A stretch of DNA of 64,000 nt from an uncultured archaeon (GTDB lineage: Archaea > Thermoplasmatota > Thermoplasmata > Thermoplasmatales > Thermoplasmataceae). Positions within the stretch are counted from its first letter, which is position 1. Every line of letters begins with the position of its first letter. The translations under genes and the position numbers were made by a program. Where the stretch lies: the NCBI GenBank assembly GCA_000965745.1, contig CP009479.1, forward strand, positions 1,498,457 to 1,562,456, written 5' to 3'. The notes beneath the pieces are model-generated. The model saw nothing but the letters and a program-made list of their open reading frames with translations. It did no database searches and was not told where the DNA came from. Shown in pieces: positions 3,656 to 12,780 of the stretch.

Positions 3656-3920
3656 AAAACAGGGATCGAATTTTCATGGCACAAATGTCGCCACACATAT
3701 GCGAAGAACCTGATCAGAAACGACGTGGATCTCGAAACCATACGTCAGTATGCTCCTGGGCCATGAGGACCTGAGCTCGACTCAGATCTACCTGCACCCC
3801 TCACAGCTCAAGGCAATCGAGCACGCAAGGAAAATTAGCCTTTTTGGTGAAGACGGGGTACAGGACCCTTCGGATTTGAACCGTATGGACCGGCGGGATT
3901 GTAAACCTATTTGGGTTTAA
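3656..3920 (+). pseudogene. Frameshifted tyrosine recombinase (integrase) C-terminal fragment
   Basis: Frame one carries FSWHKCRHTYAKNLI, the HxxRHT box of tyrosine recombinases, then DVDLETIRQ. A single extra base near 3749 shifts the frame, after which MLLGHEDLSSTQIYLHP gives the LGH box and the catalytic tyrosine (IYLHP). No N-terminal part is left upstream, where a TAG closes the frame at 3653-3655. The second frame runs through the att core at 3883-3897 and stops at TAA in 3918-3920. It is unlike the intact integrase at 3958, so it represents a different, older integration. Confidence 0.82.
3883..3897 (+). repeat. att site, distal copy of the tRNA-Ala 3' end
   Basis: GTATGGACCGGCGGG is identical to 12706-12720, where it forms the last 12 bases of tRNA-Ala plus three bases beyond. 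After it the left copy reads ATTGTAAACC and the right GATTTGAACC, so similarity fades into the T-arm. It lies 60 bases before the integrase start. Just upstream, CGGATTTGAACCG (3871-3883) also resembles a tRNA T-arm and may be a second scar. Confidence 0.85.
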
Positions 3921-3923
3921 ACC
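3914..3923. promoter_or_regulatory. GGTTTAAACC palindrome at the left border
   Basis: A perfect 10-bp palindrome 16 bases inside the left att core. The same word occurs at 12689-12698, next to the right att core. Possible integrase or excision-factor binding site; function is inferred from position only. Confidence 0.45.
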
Positions 3924-3924
3924 G

Positions 3925-3934
3925 TATATTTATT
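3925..3934 (+). promoter_or_regulatory. TATA box of the integrase gene
   Basis: TATATTTATT centred about 28 bases before the ATG at 3958, so the transcript would be leaderless. It lies only 28 bases inside the att core. Confidence 0.55.
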
Positions 3935-3957: not shown

Positions 3958-5256
3958 ATGAGGATTGGGAAAAAATACAACATGCTTCTTGAGGACCCGG
4001 ATATTAGGCGATGGTACGACAATCTGAAAAGGGGATCACAGTCAACGGCGGACGTTAGACTTAGAGGGTTAGGACGATTCTGTACACATTATGATACCAC
4101 GCCTAAAGACTTCTTAAACAAGAGTGAAAAGGAGATGTCCGATCTAATGATGGATTATGTATCTGACTTAGAAAAGGACGGTAAGGCACCCGCATACATT
4201 GACTCATGTCTAAAGCTGGTACGTTCTTGGCTCAAGTATAACTCAATAGTCCTTACCCGTTCAATTAAGATCAAGAATGCCAAGATACCCACTACACTTA
4301 ACGGTCAGAGGACACCATCACAGGATCAGTTAAAGAAGATACTCCAAGCCGGTACAATGACTTCAAGGGTTTGTATATCTCTAGTTTCCCAATCCGGCAT
4401 AAGGCTTGAAGTGTTAGGCGATTATTCGGGAAAGGACGGCCTAAGACTCAAGGATTTTCCTGAGCTTGTTATTGAAAAGGACTCGGTAGATTTTGAGACC
4501 ATACCGGCCCGGATTGTGATCCGTAATGCATTGAGCAAGGCGGGCCATGAGTATTTCACTTTCATAGGTCCAGAGGGAGCGGAATACATCAAGGACTATC
4601 TCAATGAAAGAATGAGGAAAGGGGAAAAACTGACACCTGAGACACCGTTAGTAATTCCAAGGAATCACGGAATACACTTCATTAGCACCATAAATATAGG
4701 CGATCAGATAAGGACGGCAATAAGAAAAGCCGGGTTCCCCTGGAGACCTTACGATCTCAGACACTATTTCGCTACTCAGACAATGGAAGCCGAATCAAAG
4801 GGAGCCATTATCAGAGATTGGAGAGTGTTCTTTATGGGCCATAAGGGAGACATAGAACATCAGTACACGCTTAACAACAGGACACTTTCAAAGGATAGGA
4901 TAGAATCCATGAGGGAGTCATACAGCAATGCCCTTAAATTCCTTGAGACCGAAAAGAAGGGAATATCTGAAGAGGACCATGCAAACATACTGAGGGAGCA
5001 TTCAATCAGGACATACGCAATGATTACCGGATCTGAGTTATCAGATGATGAAAGGGAAAGGCTCATGTCTCTGGAAGATTCCGATTTCTGGAAAGAGATT
5101 TCAGAGAAATACAAGCAGAATAAGAAGGACACGCTCAATAACGGACACTCTCAAAAAGTGGTCAGCGTTAAAGTAGTGAGAGAATACATCAACCAGGGAT
5201 GGGAGTATGTGAATACACTTCCTGGAAACAAAGAGGTAATAGTGAAACTTCCATGA
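3958..5256 (+). CDS. Tyrosine recombinase / archaeal integrase
   Basis: Site-specific recombinase of 432 aa that would integrate and excise the element at tRNA-Ala. The N-terminal SAM-like DNA-binding region covers roughly residues 15-105. The catalytic domain follows: Arg149 in SGIRLEVL, a candidate Lys194 in the beta hairpin, Arg268-His269 in YDLRHYFATQ, His295 in FFMGHKG, and nucleophile Tyr303 in EHQYTLNN. All key residues are present, so it is probably functional. A C-terminal extension of about 110 residues follows the tyrosine and is helical. The stop overlaps the ribosome-binding site of the next gene, suggesting co-transcription with it. Confidence 0.95.
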   Translation: MRIGKKYNMLLEDPDIRRWYDNLKRGSQSTADVRLRGLGRFCTHYDTTPKDFLNKSEKEMSDLMMDYVSDLEKDGKAPAYIDSCLKLVRSWLKYNSIVLTRSIKIKNAKIPTTLNGQRTPSQDQLKKILQAGTMTSRVCISLVSQSGIRLEVLGDYSGKDGLRLKDFPELVIEKDSVDFETIPARIVIRNALSKAGHEYFTFIGPEGAEYIKDYLNERMRKGEKLTPETPLVIPRNHGIHFISTINIGDQIRTAIRKAGFPWRPYDLRHYFATQTMEAESKGAIIRDWRVFFMGHKGDIEHQYTLNNRTLSKDRIESMRESYSNALKFLETEKKGISEEDHANILREHSIRTYAMITGSELSDDERERLMSLEDSDFWKEISEKYKQNKKDTLNNGHSQKVVSVKVVREYINQGWEYVNTLPGNKEVIVKLP

Positions 5257-5265
5257 GGATTATGC

Positions 5266-5898
5266 TTGAAATACATTTACATTGACGAGAGTGGGGACTT
5301 GGGTCTCTCAAAGAGTGGATCTACTGTTCTCGTTATTTCCGCTTTAGTGGTAAACAACTCGAAGGACCTTGACAGGATTGTCAAAAATGCTAGGAGGAAT
5401 AAATTCAGAAAAGAACTTACTGGTGCATCTGAAATTAAAGCAAACAAATCAAGTTCCACACTCAGGCGTTACATGCTCTCAAGATTGAATGGACTTAGCT
5501 CTGCTTACGCAGTGCATTGCATCCTATACAAGGACATGATTAGAAGTCAATACCTGAGAGACAACAAGCATAAACTCTACAATTTTGTAGCGGGTGCCCT
5601 TGCAGATAGTATTATCATCAACTCTGCCAATGTTGAGGCAAGAATCGATAAGAGCAAGGGAAAAGCTGTATTGAGAAAGGATTTCAACAGATACTTTGAG
5701 GATAAACTCAGAAATGGCTCTAGGATAGGAAAAATAGACATCTACCACAGTGACTCAAGGAATTTTAGCGGGTTGCAGTTAGTGGACATCTTAGCGTGGT
5801 CCGTGTTTCAAAGATTCAACAATGCTGATCTTTCCTATTTTGATTTGATAGATACCGTGAAATTTCCACAATATATGGTGGAACTATGGAAGAAGTGA
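5266..5898 (+). CDS. DUF3800 family protein
   Basis: 210-aa protein that begins with MKYIYIDESGDLG, the hallmark N-terminus of DUF3800, a family with an RNase H-like fold predicted from its conserved acidic residues. Further family features: SEIKANKSS around residue 55, EARIDKSKGK near 128, and the terminal GLQLVDILAWSVFQRF. The start is TTG with GAGGA seven bases upstream, and it follows the integrase by nine bases. Members are frequent on mobile elements and in defence islands, but biochemical roles are poorly defined. The active-site aspartates (Asp7, Asp11, Asp175) appear intact. I would not assign a specific activity. Confidence 0.8.
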   Translation: MKYIYIDESGDLGLSKSGSTVLVISALVVNNSKDLDRIVKNARRNKFRKELTGASEIKANKSSSTLRRYMLSRLNGLSSAYAVHCILYKDMIRSQYLRDNKHKLYNFVAGALADSIIINSANVEARIDKSKGKAVLRKDFNRYFEDKLRNGSRIGKIDIYHSDSRNFSGLQLVDILAWSVFQRFNNADLSYFDLIDTVKFPQYMVELWKK

Positions 5899-6060: not shown

Positions 6061-6069
6061 TAATTATAG

Positions 6070-6612
6070 TTAAATACCTAACTTTCTATACTTATTATAC
6101 TCCTCCGGAATGAACTTCCTGATCCAGCCTATCGAGAAGGAATTGAACGGTGACAGTTCCTGGAAACTCTTAGAAATGAGGGATTTCATGTGATGTTCCG
6201 ATGCAATGAAATTTCTCGATACAACTCTCTTTATGCTCTTCCATATGAATTCAATTGGGTTGAGATCAGGCGAGTATGGCGGCAGGAAAATGAGTTCTAT
6301 TCTGAGTTCTAGGGATAATTCCATCACCTTTGCTGCATGATGTGATGCAAAATTATCCAGCACCACCTTGATCTTCTTTTCAGGATTGTTCCTCCTTATC
6401 TCAACCAGAAACGCGCAGATATCCTCCTTCCTTGATCGCTCCATGAAGCTGCATGTACTTGTGCCATTGATTGCATAGAACCCTATGCAATTGATTCTGT
6501 ACTTAGCTGTGTTCTTTATCTTCTCTGACCTTTTGAAGGACCACATCCTTACAGTGTTGGATGTGTTCTGTGGAGATGACTCATCCAGGAATCCTATGAT
6601 CTCATCATCCAT
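6070..6612 (-). CDS. IS630 transposase, orfB (DDE catalytic part)
   Basis: Catalytic half of the IS630/Tc1-mariner type transposase. Aspartate one is in GFLDESSPQ near the N-terminus, the second in VVLDNFASHHA, and the glutamate in LPPYSPDLNPIEFIW, the family signature. The reading frame is open upstream of its first ATG to the A8 run of orfA. A -1 slip there reads L-K-K-N-L-G-Q and then this ORF, giving a fused protein of about 345 aa, the usual family size. On its own it lacks the DNA-binding domain. Confidence 0.9.
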   Translation of the reverse strand: MDDEIIGFLDESSPQNTSNTVRMWSFKRSEKIKNTAKYRINCIGFYAINGTSTCSFMERSRKEDICAFLVEIRRNNPEKKIKVVLDNFASHHAAKVMELSLELRIELIFLPPYSPDLNPIEFIWKSIKRVVSRNFIASEHHMKSLISKSFQELSPFNSFSIGWIRKFIPEEYNKYRKLGI

Positions 6613-6623
6613 GCTGATCTGGC

Positions 6624-7106
6624 CTAAGTTTTTTTTAGCCTTTCCTCAGCGTCCTTTGGACGCCTGAAGTCATGCGGATATGGCTTTGAGTACTTCATGC
6701 CCATCTGCCTGAGGATCGTGCGTACATGCTTCTGTGAGAACCTGATTCCGAATCTCTTCTCAATGAGTTTCTGTACCTCCTCTGTGGTCCAGTCATCCCT
6801 TTCCTGCAATATTGTCCTGAGGCGTTCTTTCTTCTCCCCGGAGAGCTTAGCGGGCTTGCCGCCTGCAAATCTAGGTGCAAGGCCGTCATATCCATCCTCA
6901 TTCCACCGGTCCTGCCACTGGTACCCGACCATCTTGTACACTCCGACCTTGGATGCAGCCTCTTCCACTGAATCTCCGTTGTAACGGTGCCTGACAAAGT
7001 ACAGGCGCTTGAGGATCCGAGTGTCCTTCTCCAGTGTCTTGATACGCTTTTCAAGCTCTTCCACACTCATTTTTCTGTCAATTGGTATGGTCTCCTTCCT
7101 GCCCAT
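6624..7106 (-). CDS. IS630 transposase, orfA (HTH DNA-binding part)
   Basis: 160-aa N-terminal half of the transposase. It shows two helix-turn-helix units of the IS630 type: residues about 25-75 (VEEAASKVGVYKMVGYQWQ) and a winged helix around 105-150 (IEKRFGIRFSQKHVRTILRQM). It ends in ERLKKT at a run of eight A residues on the coding strand (6629-6636 on the plus strand as T), a classical A-AAA-AAA slippery site into the orfB frame. It would bind the terminal repeats. Confidence 0.9.
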   Translation of the reverse strand: MGRKETIPIDRKMSVEELEKRIKTLEKDTRILKRLYFVRHRYNGDSVEEAASKVGVYKMVGYQWQDRWNEDGYDGLAPRFAGGKPAKLSGEKKERLRTILQERDDWTTEEVQKLIEKRFGIRFSQKHVRTILRQMGMKYSKPYPHDFRRPKDAEERLKKT

Positions 7107-7183
7107 GGTTGTATAATACTAATACGTATTAAAAGTATGGTATTTAACTATAATTAGTATGTAAGGGACGCCTAAGGGTGGGA

Positions 7184-7474: not shown

Positions 7475-7686
7475 CTCCCCTCGACATTTTCTTTATGGCA
7501 TTCTCTAGTTCCAGTTTCATCGTGACAACCGCACAAGCAATAGACAACAGCAGTTTCCTTGACCCCGAAATATGTGCCAAGATCATTGAGTGCTGCTCCC
7601 TGGCACCTTTCATGTTTTTCGTTCCGGCAATCCCTGAAAATATACGGGATGTCTTTATTGAATAATGAGGGTGAATCATGCTTCAT
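7471..7686 (-). CDS. Small cysteine/histidine-rich protein
   Basis: 71 aa with C-x3-E-x2-H-x2-C (DCRNEKHERCQGA) and a second cluster, YCLCGCHDE. This arrangement resembles the short metal-binding proteins common on phages and plasmids that end in a CxCxCH-like motif. It overlaps the preceding gene by 11 bases and the following one by 4. A metal-binding role is inferred from residue spacing; cellular function is unknown. Confidence 0.65.
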   Translation of the reverse strand: MKHDSPSLFNKDIPYIFRDCRNEKHERCQGAALNDLGTYFGVKETAVVYCLCGCHDETGTRECHKENVEGR

Positions 7687-8080
7687 CGTATTGCCCTCCC
7701 TTGCTCAGCCGATCCCTTATCTCCTTACGCTGTTCATCTGTGAGGGAATCCCATCTTTTCCGAGCTGCGAGCTTCCTGTTATATTCTTTGCTCAGATAGC
7801 CCCGGTATGGCAACCTTGACTTCAGTTCATCGGGCATGGATAACCAGTACTTATGGCGTGTAGGTTTGGCCATTTCACACTTTGGATCGTCCTCAATACT
7901 TGTCCTTATATCTATCAGTATGTCGAGCGGGCATTTCGGGGCAGAACATATCTCGAACCTCGAACAGTAAGACATTGATTCAAGCGATAACGACTCCTTA
8001 TCATTGGTGAAATCGTTTCTTTTTGTCTCATTTGTCCGGTCTCTCAGAATTGAAGGGGTCTCACCTGATTGCTTACTCAC
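7676..8080 (-). CDS. Hypothetical protein of the integrated replicon
   Basis: 134 aa from a GTG start that overlaps the TGA of the previous gene. The middle contains three cysteines (SYCSRFEICSAPKCP) that could bind a metal with a fourth further on (PKCEMA). The C-terminal third is basic and helical (SKEYNRKLAARKRWDSL, TDEQRKEIRDRLSKGG), a composition common in nucleic-acid-binding accessory proteins. No family recognised. Expression is probably coupled to both neighbours. Confidence 0.65.
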   Translation of the reverse strand: MSKQSGETPSILRDRTNETKRNDFTNDKESLSLESMSYCSRFEICSAPKCPLDILIDIRTSIEDDPKCEMAKPTRHKYWLSMPDELKSRLPYRGYLSKEYNRKLAARKRWDSLTDEQRKEIRDRLSKGGQYDEA

Positions 8081-8275: not shown

Positions 8276-8476
8276 TCATTTCATCAACTCCTTTTTGTCC
8301 AGTTCCTCAAGAATCAGCAACACACGGTCTTTTCTAATGGCCCCGGAGCCGTAAATCCCATCATAGTAAAGGTACAGGTTATGTTTGTTGCCGTAAAATT
8401 CCTGTGTTCTTTCGGCTATGCTTCTCTCGACCCTGGAACCGTCCGGGGATTTGTGGAAGATAGCGATGAATTTCAT
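8276..8476 (-). CDS. Small hypothetical protein
   Basis: 66 aa, ATG start overlapping the stop of the helicase-like gene in an ATGA. The sequence is beta-rich then helical (MKFIAIFHKSPDGSRVE, DRVLLILEELDKKEL) and looks like a compact folded domain. No motif recognised. Its place between the helicase and other small genes suggests a replication or copy-control accessory role, but that is inference. Confidence 0.6.
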   Translation of the reverse strand: MKFIAIFHKSPDGSRVERSIAERTQEFYGNKHNLYLYYDGIYGSGAIRKDRVLLILEELDKKELMK

Positions 8477-10311
8477 TGCGGATCACCCCCTTTTAGCTTT
8501 ATTTTACACTGTGCGATTAGCTCCTTGGTCTTTGGGCTCTCAGGATAATACTCTACAATATCGCCGGCTTTGTAGACTGTCATGTTGAAGTAAAACTGTT
8601 TCAGGACAATGTAGGAGCGGTTAGGAGATGAATTCTTACCCGTGTTTTTTTGTTTTTCAGGGGAAAAGTTTCCATTTCTAATGTCAGTACTGTCAGTTTT
8701 ATTCTGTGAGCCGGATTCCCTAGGCTTGCTACCACTTACATTAGCTTTTTTCGATTTTTTAATGTCAGGGTCTAATGTCAGCTTCCCGGTGCCGGATTCC
8801 CTAGGATCAGCTTGCGTACTGACATTACTGACATTAACTTCATAACTTTTTTCCCCGCTGTCCAGTTTAGTTATTCTTTTTGTCCTGTTTCCGTCCGAGA
8901 GGGTCTCGTACAAAAAGCCCAGTTCAAGGAGCGTAGGAGATAGTTCTCTCAGGTTCCGACCCAGTCTCCTTTCGTCCTTCGGCATGTGTTTCCTCTGCGG
9001 CTCGGACATCAATTCATAAAGAATGTCGAACAATTCTGATGTTGTGCCTCTCCAGACGTCCCTATCCGCCATGAGGGTCCGGATTCCTTGAAGTATGGTA
9101 GTGTCCTTTGCTACATCCACGATCTCATTGTGCTTGGCTTCAGTATATGCATTGAAGAATGACATGGCAGGGAGCCCCATGGCCCTGATTCCACACTCGG
9201 CCCATATAACGAAGTCCGCCATTCTCGGCAATCTCCCCTTATGTTCCGATTCTACCTCAGGATAGAGCTTGATCGCCTTCGGGATAACTGATAGAATGAA
9301 TCCCCTCACTTTCGGTATGAGCATGTCCGCCTTGCTTCTAATCTCTGCGTCAGTGAGCCTTGCGACCTCGGACATCACGCCTAACTCGATGGGACATTCA
9401 CGATCCATAAAGTCCGGTTTGTATCCCGGCCTGTTGATCCCATTCATAATGATCGGTCGCTTCAGCTTGAGGATCACCTCTCCCATGTTGGTGTAAAGCT
9501 CCCTGGTCCTGAAGCCCTGTCCTGTTGTCAGTCTGCAAATAATATCTGAAATGTAGTCCGGCATGATTGTATTCACATTATCGAAGGCCAGCATGCCCTG
9601 GTGCATGGCTGATATCGAAAGGTCCCTTTCGTCATGCTTGAGGGATTGGCTGTTAGCCCCGCTTGGATCGAATAGTTCCCGCTTTGTCTCGGTGCAAGAA
9701 GTCTTGCCGGCCCCGTGTCCGCCGGTAACAACTTCCATGGCATGAGGAATGCCGGGAATGAAGCGGGAAAAATCAAGGCCCATTGAAAGGATTTTGCCGT
9801 TCTCTGTGAGATTCCACAGATTGACAAGTGCCTGGTGGTCCTCTAGCTTTCCGTCCTTGATGGGAGCTTCGAGCATGCCGGCATATCTTGCCGTGTAGGG
9901 CTGGTCCGGTAATTTGAGACTGAATCCCGAATCTGTGATGAAATAAACCTTACCGTCCGGCCTTATAGGGTCGTAGATAAATCCCGCTTCATGCTTGGCG
10001 ACTCTTACCCCTAAGTCCCTGATGCTCTTTGAAGCAAGATAGCGGGCATAACGCTTTATGTTGGCTATCTCCTCGCCGTTTGGGAGTTCGCCCAGCCTGG
10101 AGTACTTCCTCTCGGTTAAGAGACCCTCGAAATTCCGGCCCTCTATCTCCAGTGGTATGTTATCATCCTCAACATAGAATCCCATCCCCTGGGGATTGCT
10201 GAAAAATTGGCCTGTCAGGTGATTCAACAACTGGCTCTTGTTGTCCTTACCCGTTGCCTTCTTCCCTTTCACCTGTTTGTTGATTTTCTGAATGTCCTTA
10301 TCCGGATTCAT
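8473..10311 (-). CDS. P-loop replication helicase-like ATPase
   Basis: 612-aa ATPase, probably the replicative helicase of the element. Walker A GGHGAGKTS lies near residues 197-205, Walker B GMLAFDNVN near 241-249, and a sensor-like LKRPIIMNGIN near 286-296, an arrangement like the SF3/AAA-type helicases found with plasmid primases. The N-terminal 150 residues are a separate domain. Residues about 475-560 form a low-complexity Ser/Lys/Asn-rich linker leading to a small beta-rich C-terminal domain (FYFNMTVYKAGDIVEYYPE). It overlaps the primase gene end by 14 bases. The exact helicase superfamily needs a profile search. Confidence 0.72.
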   Translation of the reverse strand: MNPDKDIQKINKQVKGKKATGKDNKSQLLNHLTGQFFSNPQGMGFYVEDDNIPLEIEGRNFEGLLTERKYSRLGELPNGEEIANIKRYARYLASKSIRDLGVRVAKHEAGFIYDPIRPDGKVYFITDSGFSLKLPDQPYTARYAGMLEAPIKDGKLEDHQALVNLWNLTENGKILSMGLDFSRFIPGIPHAMEVVTGGHGAGKTSCTETKRELFDPSGANSQSLKHDERDLSISAMHQGMLAFDNVNTIMPDYISDIICRLTTGQGFRTRELYTNMGEVILKLKRPIIMNGINRPGYKPDFMDRECPIELGVMSEVARLTDAEIRSKADMLIPKVRGFILSVIPKAIKLYPEVESEHKGRLPRMADFVIWAECGIRAMGLPAMSFFNAYTEAKHNEIVDVAKDTTILQGIRTLMADRDVWRGTTSELFDILYELMSEPQRKHMPKDERRLGRNLRELSPTLLELGFLYETLSDGNRTKRITKLDSGEKSYEVNVSNVSTQADPRESGTGKLTLDPDIKKSKKANVSGSKPRESGSQNKTDSTDIRNGNFSPEKQKNTGKNSSPNRSYIVLKQFYFNMTVYKAGDIVEYYPESPKTKELIAQCKIKLKGGDPQ

Positions 10312-11248
10312 TAACTATGACCTCTAAAAATTCCATGAGTGCGTTAGGTCCCGCTACCTTTCCCTTCCCGTCCTTGAGCCTTGATATTGATGCATTATAG
10401 GCATTGGAAACAATCCAGGGCCTGTACTGTCCTTGTCCGGTACGCTTTATCAGTTCGCCGATAATGTATAGAAGGTCATTCTCTGTTCCACCTGATCCGG
10501 CGATATATCCGCTTATCCTGAGCATGAAGTTATGGAGCTTGCCCGTTCCGTTCTGCCAATACGGCGTAAGGACCTCTATTATCGTTTCAATGTCTTTTAT
10601 TCCGTCCCCTATGTGTCTCGGCAATACCGAGCCTTCATATCCCGGCTTAACTGAATCCTTGAATAGCTTATTCTGGTCCATCTCCATCAGCGTGGAATAA
10701 TTCTCAAACACATTGCCGGTAAGAAGGAAAAATCTCCCATAATCGTAAACCTCGATGGAATGTCCCCTTAGCTCGACGGCGGACCCTAGTCCCTGGGGCT
10801 TGGCTCCTTTAACAACGATGTGAACACCATTGCCGGAAATTGAAATCTCGGTATAGCTCTGAATCTCATTGATAAGGTCAAGTACCCAATCCTCAATTTT
10901 GCCGTCATGGATCACGTTATCAAAATCAAGCCCGGTATAGTCATGATTAAAAAAGAAGCTCAGATACTCGGCATTTCTGACGCTAAAAAAATTCGTCCAT
11001 GTCCTGGGGTCGTTGCTCTTGGCCGGATAGCCATTTATTTGGTATGGATATTTTTCATATTTTCCCTTGCCCTGATTCCAAACGGCTTTGGCAATACCCC
11101 ACTGTTTTTTTAACCTCATTTCAAGCGGGACCGAGAAATTGCGTTTCGCATAGCCCGAGACTGTGAACGGTATTTTTATATTGCGTGTTGCATTATTACT
11201 TCGACTCGAATCTGCCGATGAGAAGTCACTTTCTCTCTTTTTGTTCAT
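10298..11248 (-). CDS. Primase-polymerase (AEP superfamily, NrS-1-like)
   Basis: About 316 aa. Archaeo-eukaryotic primase superfamily enzyme expected to start and extend DNA on the element. The metal-binding motif is YTGLDFDNVI. Motif II is SYTEISISGNGVHIV (the S-G-x-G-x-H-I form). Motif III is IEVYDYGRFFLLTGN, whose acidic residue and R-F-F-x-L-T-G are typical of NrS-1 type PrimPols. A helical C-terminal domain follows. I choose the ATG at 11248, which has GGAGG ten bases upstream and overlaps the previous stop; a GTG at 11284 would add 12 residues. Confidence 0.85.
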   Translation of the reverse strand: MNKKRESDFSSADSSRSNNATRNIKIPFTVSGYAKRNFSVPLEMRLKKQWGIAKAVWNQGKGKYEKYPYQINGYPAKSNDPRTWTNFFSVRNAEYLSFFFNHDYTGLDFDNVIHDGKIEDWVLDLINEIQSYTEISISGNGVHIVVKGAKPQGLGSAVELRGHSIEVYDYGRFFLLTGNVFENYSTLMEMDQNKLFKDSVKPGYEGSVLPRHIGDGIKDIETIIEVLTPYWQNGTGKLHNFMLRISGYIAGSGGTENDLLYIIGELIKRTGQGQYRPWIVSNAYNASISRLKDGKGKVAGPNALMEFLEVIVNESG

Positions 11249-11409
11249 GACGTGGGTGCCTCCATCCTTAGCAGGCGCTCCCACGTCTGCATTTTGCTCA
11301 GATAGTCATCAATGTCCAGTCTATCGGGCTCCGACAGGATCAGTGTCTTGACCGGATCAGGAAACTTGATCGCCTTTGCCTTGAGGTCCTTAATATCGAC
11401 TTCAGTCAT
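11245..11409 (-). CDS. Small hypothetical protein, 54 aa
   Basis: Starts MTEVDIKDLKAKAIKFPDP and ends RLLRMEAPTS. The stop overlaps the primase ATG (ATGA) and its own start overlaps the end of the AbrB-like gene by eight bases. This chain of overlaps is the main reason to believe it is real. Helical and acidic-basic mixed; no family recognised. It could be an antitoxin-like or adaptor peptide, but nothing in the sequence proves this. Confidence 0.62.
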   Translation of the reverse strand: MTEVDIKDLKAKAIKFPDPVKTLILSEPDRLDIDDYLSKMQTWERLLRMEAPTS

Positions 11410-11545
11410 TGTCTAGCACCGTGGGAAAAACCCTTATTGAGCCATCCGCCTGTAATTCAACCGTCAGATCGGAGTACCTGCCAATCCCCTGGGCCTTAAC
11501 CCACTCAGAGGGCAGCGTCATCTGGAAGCTGCCCTGCACCTGCAT
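11402..11545 (-). CDS. AbrB-like swapped-hairpin DNA-binding protein
   Basis: 47 aa, first gene of the replicon operon. GSFQMTLPSEWVKAQGIG followed by LTVELQADGSIRVFP matches the archaeal AbrB/SpoVT fold, as found at the N-terminus of PhoU-like regulators and in antitoxins. Such dimers bind operators, so it may autoregulate the operon. ATG at 11545 has AGGAGG close upstream; an in-frame GTG at 11575 would add ten basic residues (including RWKRRA), which would suit DNA binding, so the start is open. Confidence 0.7.
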   Translation of the reverse strand: MQVQGSFQMTLPSEWVKAQGIGRYSDLTVELQADGSIRVFPTVLDND

Positions 11546-11629
11546 GGCCCTCCTTTTCCATCTTATAGGGTTCACACTATGATTATCGATTACGAGGTAT
11601 TGATCGTCTTTTTAGATTCACGGAGCCAC

Positions 11630-11639: not shown

Positions 11640-11650
11640 CATATATACAA

Positions 11651-11681
11651 CCATATGATTAACCATATGATTAACCATATG
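11651..11681 (+). repeat. Tandem 12-bp repeats with CATATG cores
   Basis: CCATATGATTAA occurs twice head to tail (11651-11662, 11663-11674) and is followed by a third partial unit CCATATG (11675-11681) that runs into the GTG start. Each unit holds the palindrome CATATG. Spacing of 12 bp puts sites roughly one helical turn apart, as in iterons or a cooperative operator. Located at the expected transcription start of the following gene, binding would repress it. Confidence 0.7.
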
Positions 11682-12619
11682 TGGCTGACTTTTTCCCAAG
11701 GGGCGTGACCGGTCTCATAATCTACAGGGGGCTGAGGTTCGCGAGGAAAGCCGACTTTCTAGAATTGTGCGATTATCTCAGGTACGTAGGAAAGAAGCTC
11801 TCCAAGCCTGAACGGTCGTTTTACAGTCAAAGAAGGAACAGGACTGTTAACTATGCCCTATCCAAGCTCTCAAGTTATAACTTAGTAAAATGGGATGAAA
11901 GAGCCAAGAGATACGAATGCAAGGTTGATTATGAAGCCTATCTCAAGTTCCTTAGGGAGACTGCTGATGAATTGTATCAGAGGGGAAAAAGAGGAATTGA
12001 GCACAGCATCATGAAGCTTATAGAAGATTACGTAGACAGAGGGATGAAGGATCCATCAAGAAATGTTGGGATCTATCATTCTGCAAGGAGTTCCATGGAA
12101 CCCGAGTTCACACAAGAAGAAAGGGATCTCTTGGACTGCAACGGCTGGAACAAATACAACTCGATAGGTGAGGTCTACATGGACGACCTACTGCAGCTTG
12201 ATCTTCTTGAAAAATTAATTCTCGAAAGAGGATGGAAAGCCCAAGCAGTGAGCGTCTCAATGTCTGAGATCGTCATGGACCAAGACAAAGAGAGGAAATG
12301 GATCAATGAAAAACTAGGGTTGGAGGGCCTACGTCAAGAACACCTCAAACTCAGGGCATCCGGCCCAATAAGAATCGATTTAGAAGCGGAACCAGAAGCA
12401 TGGGATATTCTGACGGCCGAAGGATTGGCAGCAAGACGGGTGTTCAAATTAGAAGGATGGGACACAGAGAAAGCTCAAAGGAGGTACGAGTTATTTGGAG
12501 ACTCCGTGTTTCATAGAATGGTTACAACAAAACCCTGGTGGTTGCGAACAGCAAATGAGAATGAAGACATTGAAAATATCTACTGGGGAGAAAAAGAGAA
12601 AAGGTCGAAGGATAAGTAA
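11681..12619 (+). CDS. Winged-helix-like protein of the integrated replicon
   Basis: 312 aa, GTG start directly at the CATATG repeats. Residues about 20-85 (ELCDYLRYVGKKLSKPE, RTVNYALSKLSSYNLVKWDE) look like a winged helix-turn-helix. The remainder is charged and helical with no recognised motif, ending in KEKRSKDK. It is the only plus-strand gene at this end and is divergent from the replication operon. It is a candidate replication-initiator or copy-control protein binding the repeats at its own start. Function unproven. Confidence 0.65.
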   Translation: MADFFPRGVTGLIIYRGLRFARKADFLELCDYLRYVGKKLSKPERSFYSQRRNRTVNYALSKLSSYNLVKWDERAKRYECKVDYEAYLKFLRETADELYQRGKRGIEHSIMKLIEDYVDRGMKDPSRNVGIYHSARSSMEPEFTQEERDLLDCNGWNKYNSIGEVYMDDLLQLDLLEKLILERGWKAQAVSVSMSEIVMDQDKERKWINEKLGLEGLRQEHLKLRASGPIRIDLEAEPEAWDILTAEGLAARRVFKLEGWDTEKAQRRYELFGDSVFHRMVTTKPWWLRTANENEDIENIYWGEKEKRSKDK

Positions 12620-12688: not shown

Positions 12689-12698
12689 GGTTTAAACC
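12689..12698. promoter_or_regulatory. GGTTTAAACC palindrome at the right border
   Basis: Same palindrome as at 3914-3923, here 8 bases outside the right att core on the element side. The 11-mer GGGTTTAAACC is identical at both ends. Confidence 0.45.
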
Positions 12699-12705
12699 TA
12701 AATTG

Positions 12706-12720
12706 GTATGGACCGGCGGG
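12706..12720 (+). repeat. att site overlapping the tRNA-Ala 3' end
   Basis: GTATGGACCGGCGGG, identical to 3883-3897. Covers the discriminator base, acceptor 3' strand and the edge of the T-stem of the minus-strand tRNA. Chromosome-element junction on the tRNA side. Confidence 0.85.
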
Positions 12721-12780
12721 GATTTGAACCCCGGACCTCTTCCATGCCAAGGAAGCGATCTACCTCTGATCTACCGGCCC
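12709..12780 (-). tRNA. tRNA-Ala (anticodon GGC)
   Basis: A full 72-base cloverleaf. The acceptor is GGGCCGG paired with CCGGTCC, including the G3:U70 wobble that identifies alanine tRNAs. The D-stem is GATC/GATC, the anticodon stem CTTCC/GGAAG around loop TTGGCAT, the T-stem CGGGG/CCCCG with loop TTCAAAT, and the discriminator A. No intron, and CCA is not encoded. Its 3' end is the integration target of the neighbouring element and was restored intact. Confidence 0.96.

Follow-up and report, generated by a model that had tools for sequence, protein, structure and literature searches.

Catalytic domains of the kind described here are known from the primase-polymerase (PrimPol) of phage NrS-1 (PDB 6a9w, 6jop, 6k9a, 7rr3). 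In SaPI elements the C-terminal domain of the helicase reads iterons just 3' of its own gene, and SCCmec Cch2 binds repeats 3' of its own gene (PMC7581432); the archaeal plasmid pRN1 combines a small DNA-binding protein with an AEP and a helicase (orf56/orf904) and requires a stem-loop directly 3' of the primase-helicase gene (PMC4234260); and Rep proteins of the Streptomyces plasmids pFP11 and pWTY27 bind iterons, pWTY27 RepB being a predicted primase/polymerase (PMC3583192). Substitution of different ATPase domains beside AEPs, with PriCT following the AEP, has been described (Kazlauskas et al. 2018, PMC5862659), and prim-pol proteins occur in other small archaeal elements (PMC4158269). Compared with them here is an 8.8-kb element integrated at a tRNA-Ala gene in an uncultured archaeon of the Thermoplasmataceae (GenBank assembly GCA_000965745.1, contig CP009479.1, positions 1,498,457 to 1,562,456 of the forward strand; this whole 64,000-nt stretch is called the window, and positions are numbered within it). 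A PrimPol gene and an AAA+ helicase gene probably constitute the self-contained replication module of this Thermoplasmata element, with an iteron origin inside the helicase gene (Table 1). The parts of the module are of known kinds, and ATPase exchange beside AEPs has already been described (PMC5862659). The open-access literature searched yielded no report of a primase combining NrS-1 and PF09250 parts, none of this helicase family, and none of iterons arrayed within the family's coding sequence.

The initial annotation, made from the sequence alone, had read the frame at 10298-11248 as an AEP PrimPol, and searches confirmed a real gene of this class far above chance: NrS-1 primase chains matched it at about 1e-16, and phage DNA primase families of PHROGs matched, the best being phrog_1829 ('DNA primase', 1e-37). 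A Pfam search gave no match, and the PF09250 N-domain model (Prim-Pol proper) did not recognise the protein. The motifs YTGLDFDNVI, SISGNGVHIV and GRFFLLTGN lie at residues 104-113, 136-145 and 171-179. D108, D110, H143 and E166 align with NrS-1 D78, D80, H115 and E139, and the catalytic Asp, Asp, His and Glu are accompanied by the Ser-x-Ser loop (S136, S138); the role names given to these NrS-1-equivalent positions are in part our assumption. Unlike NrS-1, the window's PrimPol has Ile (I137) for the loop proline, which is present in 50 of the 53 other alignment rows, and Phe (F173) at the Y146 position, where those 53 rows hold F (29), Y (23) or a gap (1). In NrS-1, Y146F affected activity only slightly, and the authors suggest that PrimPols with Phe at this position may start more exclusively with deoxynucleoside triphosphates (PMC8718748). 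The NrS-1 change P109A is described as reducing de novo synthesis.

Structure prediction, which had been proposed as a check, agreed for both proteins. In the AlphaFold2 model of the PrimPol, the N-domain (residues 41-200) was confident and the helical C-domain less certain; the predicted N-domain matched the NrS-1 fold at Z 19.1 (2.7 Å, 163 residues) and pRN1 ORF904, an AEP that we take to be PF09250-type, at Z 8.9. The first 200 residues are thus of NrS-1 type in sequence, in the active site and in predicted fold, and the protein is expected to be active as a primase. Stand-alone NrS-1-like AEP domains of 181-183 aa were also seen in three genomes of one genus (G001-G003; L029 8221-8772, L005 and L008), with the motif II His changed to Arg in four of the six rows of their alignment; at the one locus viewed, no helicase or integrase was recognised beside such a domain.

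The earlier label of NrS-1-type PrimPol fits these 200 residues and not the C-domain. By blastp, the C-domain (residues 205-316) matched sister-element primases and none of 81 viral loci, and the N-domain matched 80 of the 81 loci, which had been fetched using the NrS-1-type PrimPol family itself, and none of six PF09250-type primases. PF09250 was matched by all six two-gene sister primases. By hhalign, the C-domain aligned with the PF09250-type C-domains of sister elements (99.2%, E 1.6e-19) and gave no match with 12 NrS-1-like viral C-domains (0.2%). In the fold search no chain was a clear match to the C-domain, a result that excludes nothing. Judged from its sequence, the PrimPol is a chimera of an NrS-1-type head and the C-domain of the sister elements' PF09250-type primases. 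Since the C-domain is not of the kind found in NrS-1-like phage proteins, the start-site behaviour of NrS-1 is not simply transferable to this PrimPol, which is a domain swap made by nature and could be used to learn where in a PrimPol the choice of start site resides. NrS-1-like and pRN1-like primases have been placed in one group (PMC5862659), so the two primase heads are cousins.

In a further difference from NrS-1, the helicase is encoded by a separate gene and belongs to another family. The helicase-like ATPase with GGHGAGKTS that had been annotated beside the PrimPol was found as described, the two genes overlapping by 14 nt. Helicase family searches (Pfam, PHROGs and others) gave no match above cut-off, the curated D5/DUF5906 models (PF08706, PF19263) included, and since these were uninformative, fold and profile-profile comparison were used. 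The helicase model had a mean predicted local distance difference test (pLDDT) score of 72, with residues 31-480 mostly above 80 and the tail below 50. It matched the SaPI5 primase-helicase PriRep1 at Z 17.4 (6.8 Å, 373 residues), SCCmec Cch at Z 14.9, poxvirus D5/E5 at about 14 and MCM at 13-14; the root-mean-square deviations are high, and the matches therefore indicate fold class, not close kinship. Foldseek placed the NrS-1 C-terminal helicase among the matches as well (1e-7). In hhalign the helicase matched the D5/DUF5906 set (94.9%, E 4.7e-8), a distant relation visible only by this method. The SF3/D5 assignment proposed earlier was thus not obtained by hmmscan and was recovered by profile-profile comparison and fold. 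In the predicted model an AAA+ core is followed by a winged helix, as in PriRep1, Cch and D5; the protein folds, on this prediction, as an AAA+ replicative helicase of their kind, and the winged-helix domain would bind DNA. The third ATPase kind of the sister elements (G008b, G032) did not match it (hhalign 0.7%), and RepA-type phage helicases matched in the Walker A stretch only.

Relatives of the helicase were found in archaeal genomes, in 26 of 72,556 plasmid records (hosts Streptomyces, Stanieria, Methylobacterium, Chlorohelix, Methanothrix and Actinacidiphila) and in one phage (two accessions). In five plasmids of Streptomyces and Actinacidiphila a 'bifunctional DNA primase/polymerase' is annotated upstream of the relative; records from Methylobacterium, Stanieria and Chlorohelix lack such an annotation next to it, and in Methanothrix pH6Ac the relative is fused to a PF09250-like stretch, just under cut-off. 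In pFP11 the Prim-Pol gene precedes a homologue of the window's helicase (27.9%, E 4e-37), which is presumably the Rep of PMC3583192; nine copies of AGGGACGC, counted without shuffles, start about 550 nt past the homologue's gene. Unlike in the window, the pFP11 array lies outside the gene and the primase is annotated as PF09250-type. In another family of the order, a 355-aa protein downstream of a helicase relative (L051 3524-4591) has an AEP-like SFSGNNSIHVHV stretch, noted by eye, and may represent a third type of primase partner for this helicase.

Within the helicase gene, in linker-coding DNA just after the winged-helix part, seven TAATGTCAG sites follow one another as two forward, two reverse, one forward with one mismatch and two reverse (one mismatched). 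Nowhere else in the window do 8-mers cluster as densely as in this array; TAATGTCAG occurs six times in the window against 0.58 expected, and five of the six are inside the array. None of 300 codon shuffles reached the observed count of exact 6-, 7- or 8-mers (each tested); the shuffles mixed the codons of the whole gene and not the linker's own composition, which 104 other long open reading frames (ORFs) were meant to cover as controls, and none of these 104 reached four copies. As single-stranded DNA, the array region could form a long imperfect hairpin (z -3.5). Among close relatives, G038 is laid out almost identically, but its homologous sites hold a different repeat, TAATGTCGG, and all seven share the altered base; G008a carries TAATGTCAG itself at four exact sites, G019 has TAATAGCAC at four sites, and the G040 repeat is TATCGTCA. 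A first clustering test (9-mers, one mismatch) found the array in the window, G038 and G040, the other eight genes examined being not above shuffles; exact 8-mers were adopted after it. The D5-type helicase G065 contains six intragenic copies of AGTCCA (0/300 shuffles), and the D5-type helicase of the window's own genome (L027) five of GGTAAC (4/300 shuffles); intragenic repeats in the G052, G008b, G032 and G004 genes were not above shuffles.

The linker is predicted to be disordered (pLDDT < 50 from residue 485), as would be expected if the repeats were repetition at the protein level in a low-complexity linker and not a signal in the DNA. We regard this as very improbable: the sites lie in both orientations and therefore encode different residues (VNVSNVS and TLDPDI), the G038 sites all carry the same changed base, and codon shuffles and other genes never reached the array count. 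In two relatives, moreover, an array lies past the stop codon.

These two relatives (L041, L164) came from a survey of 34 helicase-family genes, each with up to 700 nt of downstream DNA, in which an array was defined as at least four exact 8-mers, a count reached by 0/60 shuffles. The 34 genes include close relatives (L158 and L161 are 96% identical) and are not independent. Ten of the 26 plasmid records were included (H3-H6, H10, H13-H15, H20 and H21), and pFP11 (H8) was examined separately. In 19 genes an array started -5 to +90 nt from the estimated end of the winged helix, which was extrapolated where the alignment stopped short (e.g. L057, L058 and L062); with the five genes that had given the pattern set aside, 14 of 29 had an array there. 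Seventeen of the 19 arrays were fully inside coding sequence and the other two just past the stop codon, and in L158, L161 and L162 arrays lay 350-560 nt further downstream. In the window, a repeat array adjoins the winged-helix end, as in an iteron-type replicon, where the array borders the initiator's DNA-binding domain, and this intragenic array probably serves as the origin of replication. The idea that NrS-1-like primase-helicase genes have intragenic arrays as a rule was rejected, 3 of 75 such viral ORFs reaching four copies. Phages such as lambda are known to carry an origin within an initiator gene.

The likeness to SaPI and Cch2 is in place, repeats adjoining the DNA-binding C-terminal part of the helicase in all of them; unlike SaPI and SCCmec, the archaeal locus has repeats inside the coding sequence and a separate primase gene, and its helicase has no sequence match to theirs. 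The pRN1 system is similar in that an origin-like hairpin lies 3' of the helicase part, and differs in having one fused protein and a stem-loop without iterons, downstream of the gene. That the origins of SaPI, SCCmec, pRN1 and the Streptomyces plasmids adjoin comparable replication genes favours an origin in the window's array. An unlikely alternative is that the pair replicates the element from an origin at another site, such as the 12-bp repeats of 11649-11681, and that the repeats within the helicase gene serve incompatibility, partition or regulation. The 12-bp repeats do sit in a divergent intergenic region, and control of copy number is a known role of iteron arrays; yet in nine other elements scanned with Tandem Repeats Finder (TRF) the 12-bp repeat was not seen at this position, and the intragenic-type arrays recur in many relatives just 3' of the winged-helix part, the place of the SaPI and SCCmec origins relative to their helicase genes.

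The pairing of PrimPol and helicase was not constant among sister elements. Retention of the paired ATPase in related elements had been expected, and this failed in the nearest case: the closest PrimPol relative, G052 (58% identity), is followed by a DUF5906 (D5-type) helicase with the same 14-nt overlap. Close relatives of the window's helicase in G019, G008a and G038 (52-65%, blastp) are preceded by PF09250 primases, and in the G040 element the helicase was present with no primase gene recognised beside it. Both primase types pair with both helicase types (window, G052, G019 and G065), and exchange or repeated replacement is therefore needed. Judged by gene content and sequence, the pair is an exchangeable and not a fixed unit.

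Mosaicism extended into the genes. Residues 553-605 of the window's helicase share 53% identity with the last part of a D5-type helicase encoded at another locus of the genome; the window's tail compared with that of G065 was not significant alone. The G008a tail is shared with G008b (72% over 82 aa), whose ATPase core gave no match, and the two DNAs are 79% identical over 10662-11208, a region starting beyond the G008a repeat array. The N-terminus of G019 is shared with the D5-type G065 (55% over 132 aa). Sister elements have thus traded primase heads and helicase tails, and the helicase core has kept its winged helix and its iterons. Unlike the exchange between families described by Kazlauskas et al. 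(PMC5862659), this occurs within genes among sister elements and includes the AEP head. An early model, in which iteron type goes with the type of C-terminal tail, was rejected, since the window and G008a share TAATGTCAG and not the tail, and G008a and G008b the tail and not the repeat. The second helicase of the window's genome (L027 9409-11472; G000:C1, about 1131408-1133471) is replication-type and D5-like by comparison with G065.

In the working proposed for the module, the element would first be excised by its integrase. The AAA+ helicase/initiator would bind the 9-bp iterons in its own gene through the winged helix encoded just upstream of them, assemble as a hexamer and open the origin; by analogy with the systems above, it should then offer single strands to the PrimPol. 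On the single-stranded DNA so exposed, the NrS-1-type catalytic domain of the PrimPol would start new DNA strands, the PriCT-like C-domain holding the template. It is plausible that the element may do without host primase, as the initial annotation had suggested, although the bulk of synthesis could still fall to a host polymerase. The module itself had been placed at 10298-11248; that interval is the PrimPol, and the module extends further. The proposal of a replication module stood in so far as an NrS-1-type AEP lies beside a helicase-like ATPase in an integrated element; the pair did not prove to be a fixed unit, and the probable intragenic origin had been missed.

Several observations weigh against an iteron origin served by this pair. 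In twelve of the 34 surveyed genes, no array of four or more exact 8-mers was seen from the winged-helix end onwards: L033, L055, L037 and L038 (just three copies, close to the expected position), L056, L057, L036, L157, L159, L160, L042 and L163, the last with an array elsewhere that shuffles also reached. The shuffle test detected no array in the sister gene of G052, and the repeats common to the window and G008a could partly reflect common descent. In Thermus ICETh2, deletion of the primase Ppol had no effect on element replication, and a role in defence against environmental DNA was reported (PMC7693054). That the PrimPol here is not the replicative primase and serves instead to repair DNA, to tolerate damage or to counter invading DNA, as was proposed for Ppol-Hel of that element, is nonetheless improbable: the primase-helicase order is retained in eight elements despite exchange of both partners, and a defence function was rejected when PADLOC gave no match for the five proteins tried.

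The element was delimited by an integrase and a direct repeat of the tRNA 3' end at both borders, as in tRNA-integrating archaeal elements, the left attachment (att) core at 3883 lying 75 bp upstream of the integrase start. GGTTTAAACC-like sequences noted by eye on the element side of both att cores (3890-3925 and 12690-12706) are possible integrase arm sites; L021 and L024 have similar TAAACC motifs, also noted by eye. An insertion that we presume to be IS630-like lies inside the element, and the att copies diverge outside the 15-bp core, as they might in a dead element of which the module is a decaying remnant. We consider such decay improbable, as none of integrase, PrimPol and helicase is truncated, their motifs are intact and the array retains five exact 9-mers.

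PrimPol matches were found in 10 and helicase matches in 6 of 77 same-family genomes (E <= 0.001, the window's own genome included), and G052 was the only other one of these 77 with a full-length PrimPol match. Class-wide, the PrimPol profile was matched, at least in part, in 12 of 400 genomes and the helicase profile in 25. Seven sister stretches (L019, L020, L021, L022, L024, L025 and L028) have integrases 35-46% identical to that of the window; two of them have direct repeats of tRNA ends (21 and 23 bp) at their borders, the first without a called tRNA gene. The integrase genes of L022 and L025 begin some 50 bp away from a gene for tRNA-Cys. L019, on the G052 contig, has an imperfect direct repeat of about 525 bp (1-524 and 9052-9575, 9.05 kb apart), one copy of which adjoins the integrase. 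A 79-aa Sm/Hfq-like protein (L020 5959-6198; SM-ATX 2.7e-4, below curated cut-offs) recurs across sister elements. Among the stretches compared, the DUF3800 gene was carried by the window's element only. Family searches with the divergent 312-aa protein gave nothing above chance.

Table 1. Features of the integrated element, in window coordinates
Feature	Position	Strand	Remarks
Left att core	3883-3897		15 bp, identical to tRNA end
Tyrosine recombinase (integrase)	3958-5256	+	432 aa
DUF3800 gene	5266-5898		Profile match 1.4e-16
Presumed IS630-like insertion	6061-7156		Two transposase ORFs; 37-nt inverted ends 86% complementary; between integrase and helicase
Cysteine-containing protein	7676-8080	-	134 aa; conserved in sister elements (54-63% in longer matches)
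Predicted AAA+ replicative helicase/initiator	8473-10311	-	612 aa
Helicase C-terminal tail	8476-8655	-	Residues 553-612; 553-605 common to D5-type helicase elsewhere in same genome
Iteron array, candidate replication origin	8679-8836	-	Inside helicase gene; seven 9-bp sites, both orientations, five exact TAATGTCAG
Winged-helix-like domain	8857-9099	-	About residues 405-485; from secondary structure and fold; candidate iteron reader
AAA+ core	9112-9744	-	About residues 190-400; Walker A 197-205 (GGHGAGKTS), FDN 243-245, sensor-like NGIN 290-293, DR 303-304; motif roles by analogy
PrimPol	10298-11248	-	316 aa; ATG start, TAA stop
PrimPol C-domain, PriCT-like	10298-10636	-	Residues 205-316; common to PF09250-type primases of sister elements
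PrimPol N-domain, NrS-1-type AEP	10649-11248	-	Residues 1-200; D108, D110, S136, S138, H143, E166
54-aa protein	11245-11409	-	Homologue also upstream of G019 primase (60% over 47 aa)
AbrB/MazE-like DNA-binding protein	11402-11575	-	57 aa; first gene of operon; PF04014, 1.3e-5
12-bp repeat, possible operator	11649-11681		2.8 copies (TRF); between divergent genes
Divergent protein, possible regulator	11681-12619	+	312 aa
Right att core	12706-12720		Within 3' end of tRNA-Ala(GGC); feature entry 12706-12780 (-)
tRNA-Ala(GGC) gene	12709-12780	-

Through this analysis two uncharacterised archaeal genes become a replicon that can be put to the test, and a candidate for its origin is named. The helicase represents an AAA+ family not captured by Pfam, which extends from archaeal elements to plasmids of Streptomyces, Methylobacterium, Stanieria and a methanogen and often lies beside a primase, with a repeat array at a fixed place. 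AAA+ core, winged-helix reader and iteron origin may form one contiguous coding stretch that is traded as a unit, with primase heads (NrS-1- or PF09250-type AEP) and helicase tails swapped independently and with the archaeal origin protein-coding as the helicase gene reads through it; we give this an even chance. Being contiguous, initiator and origin would be hard to separate by recombination, and if this plug-in arrangement is true, an element could change its replication machinery and its incompatibility group in one exchange.

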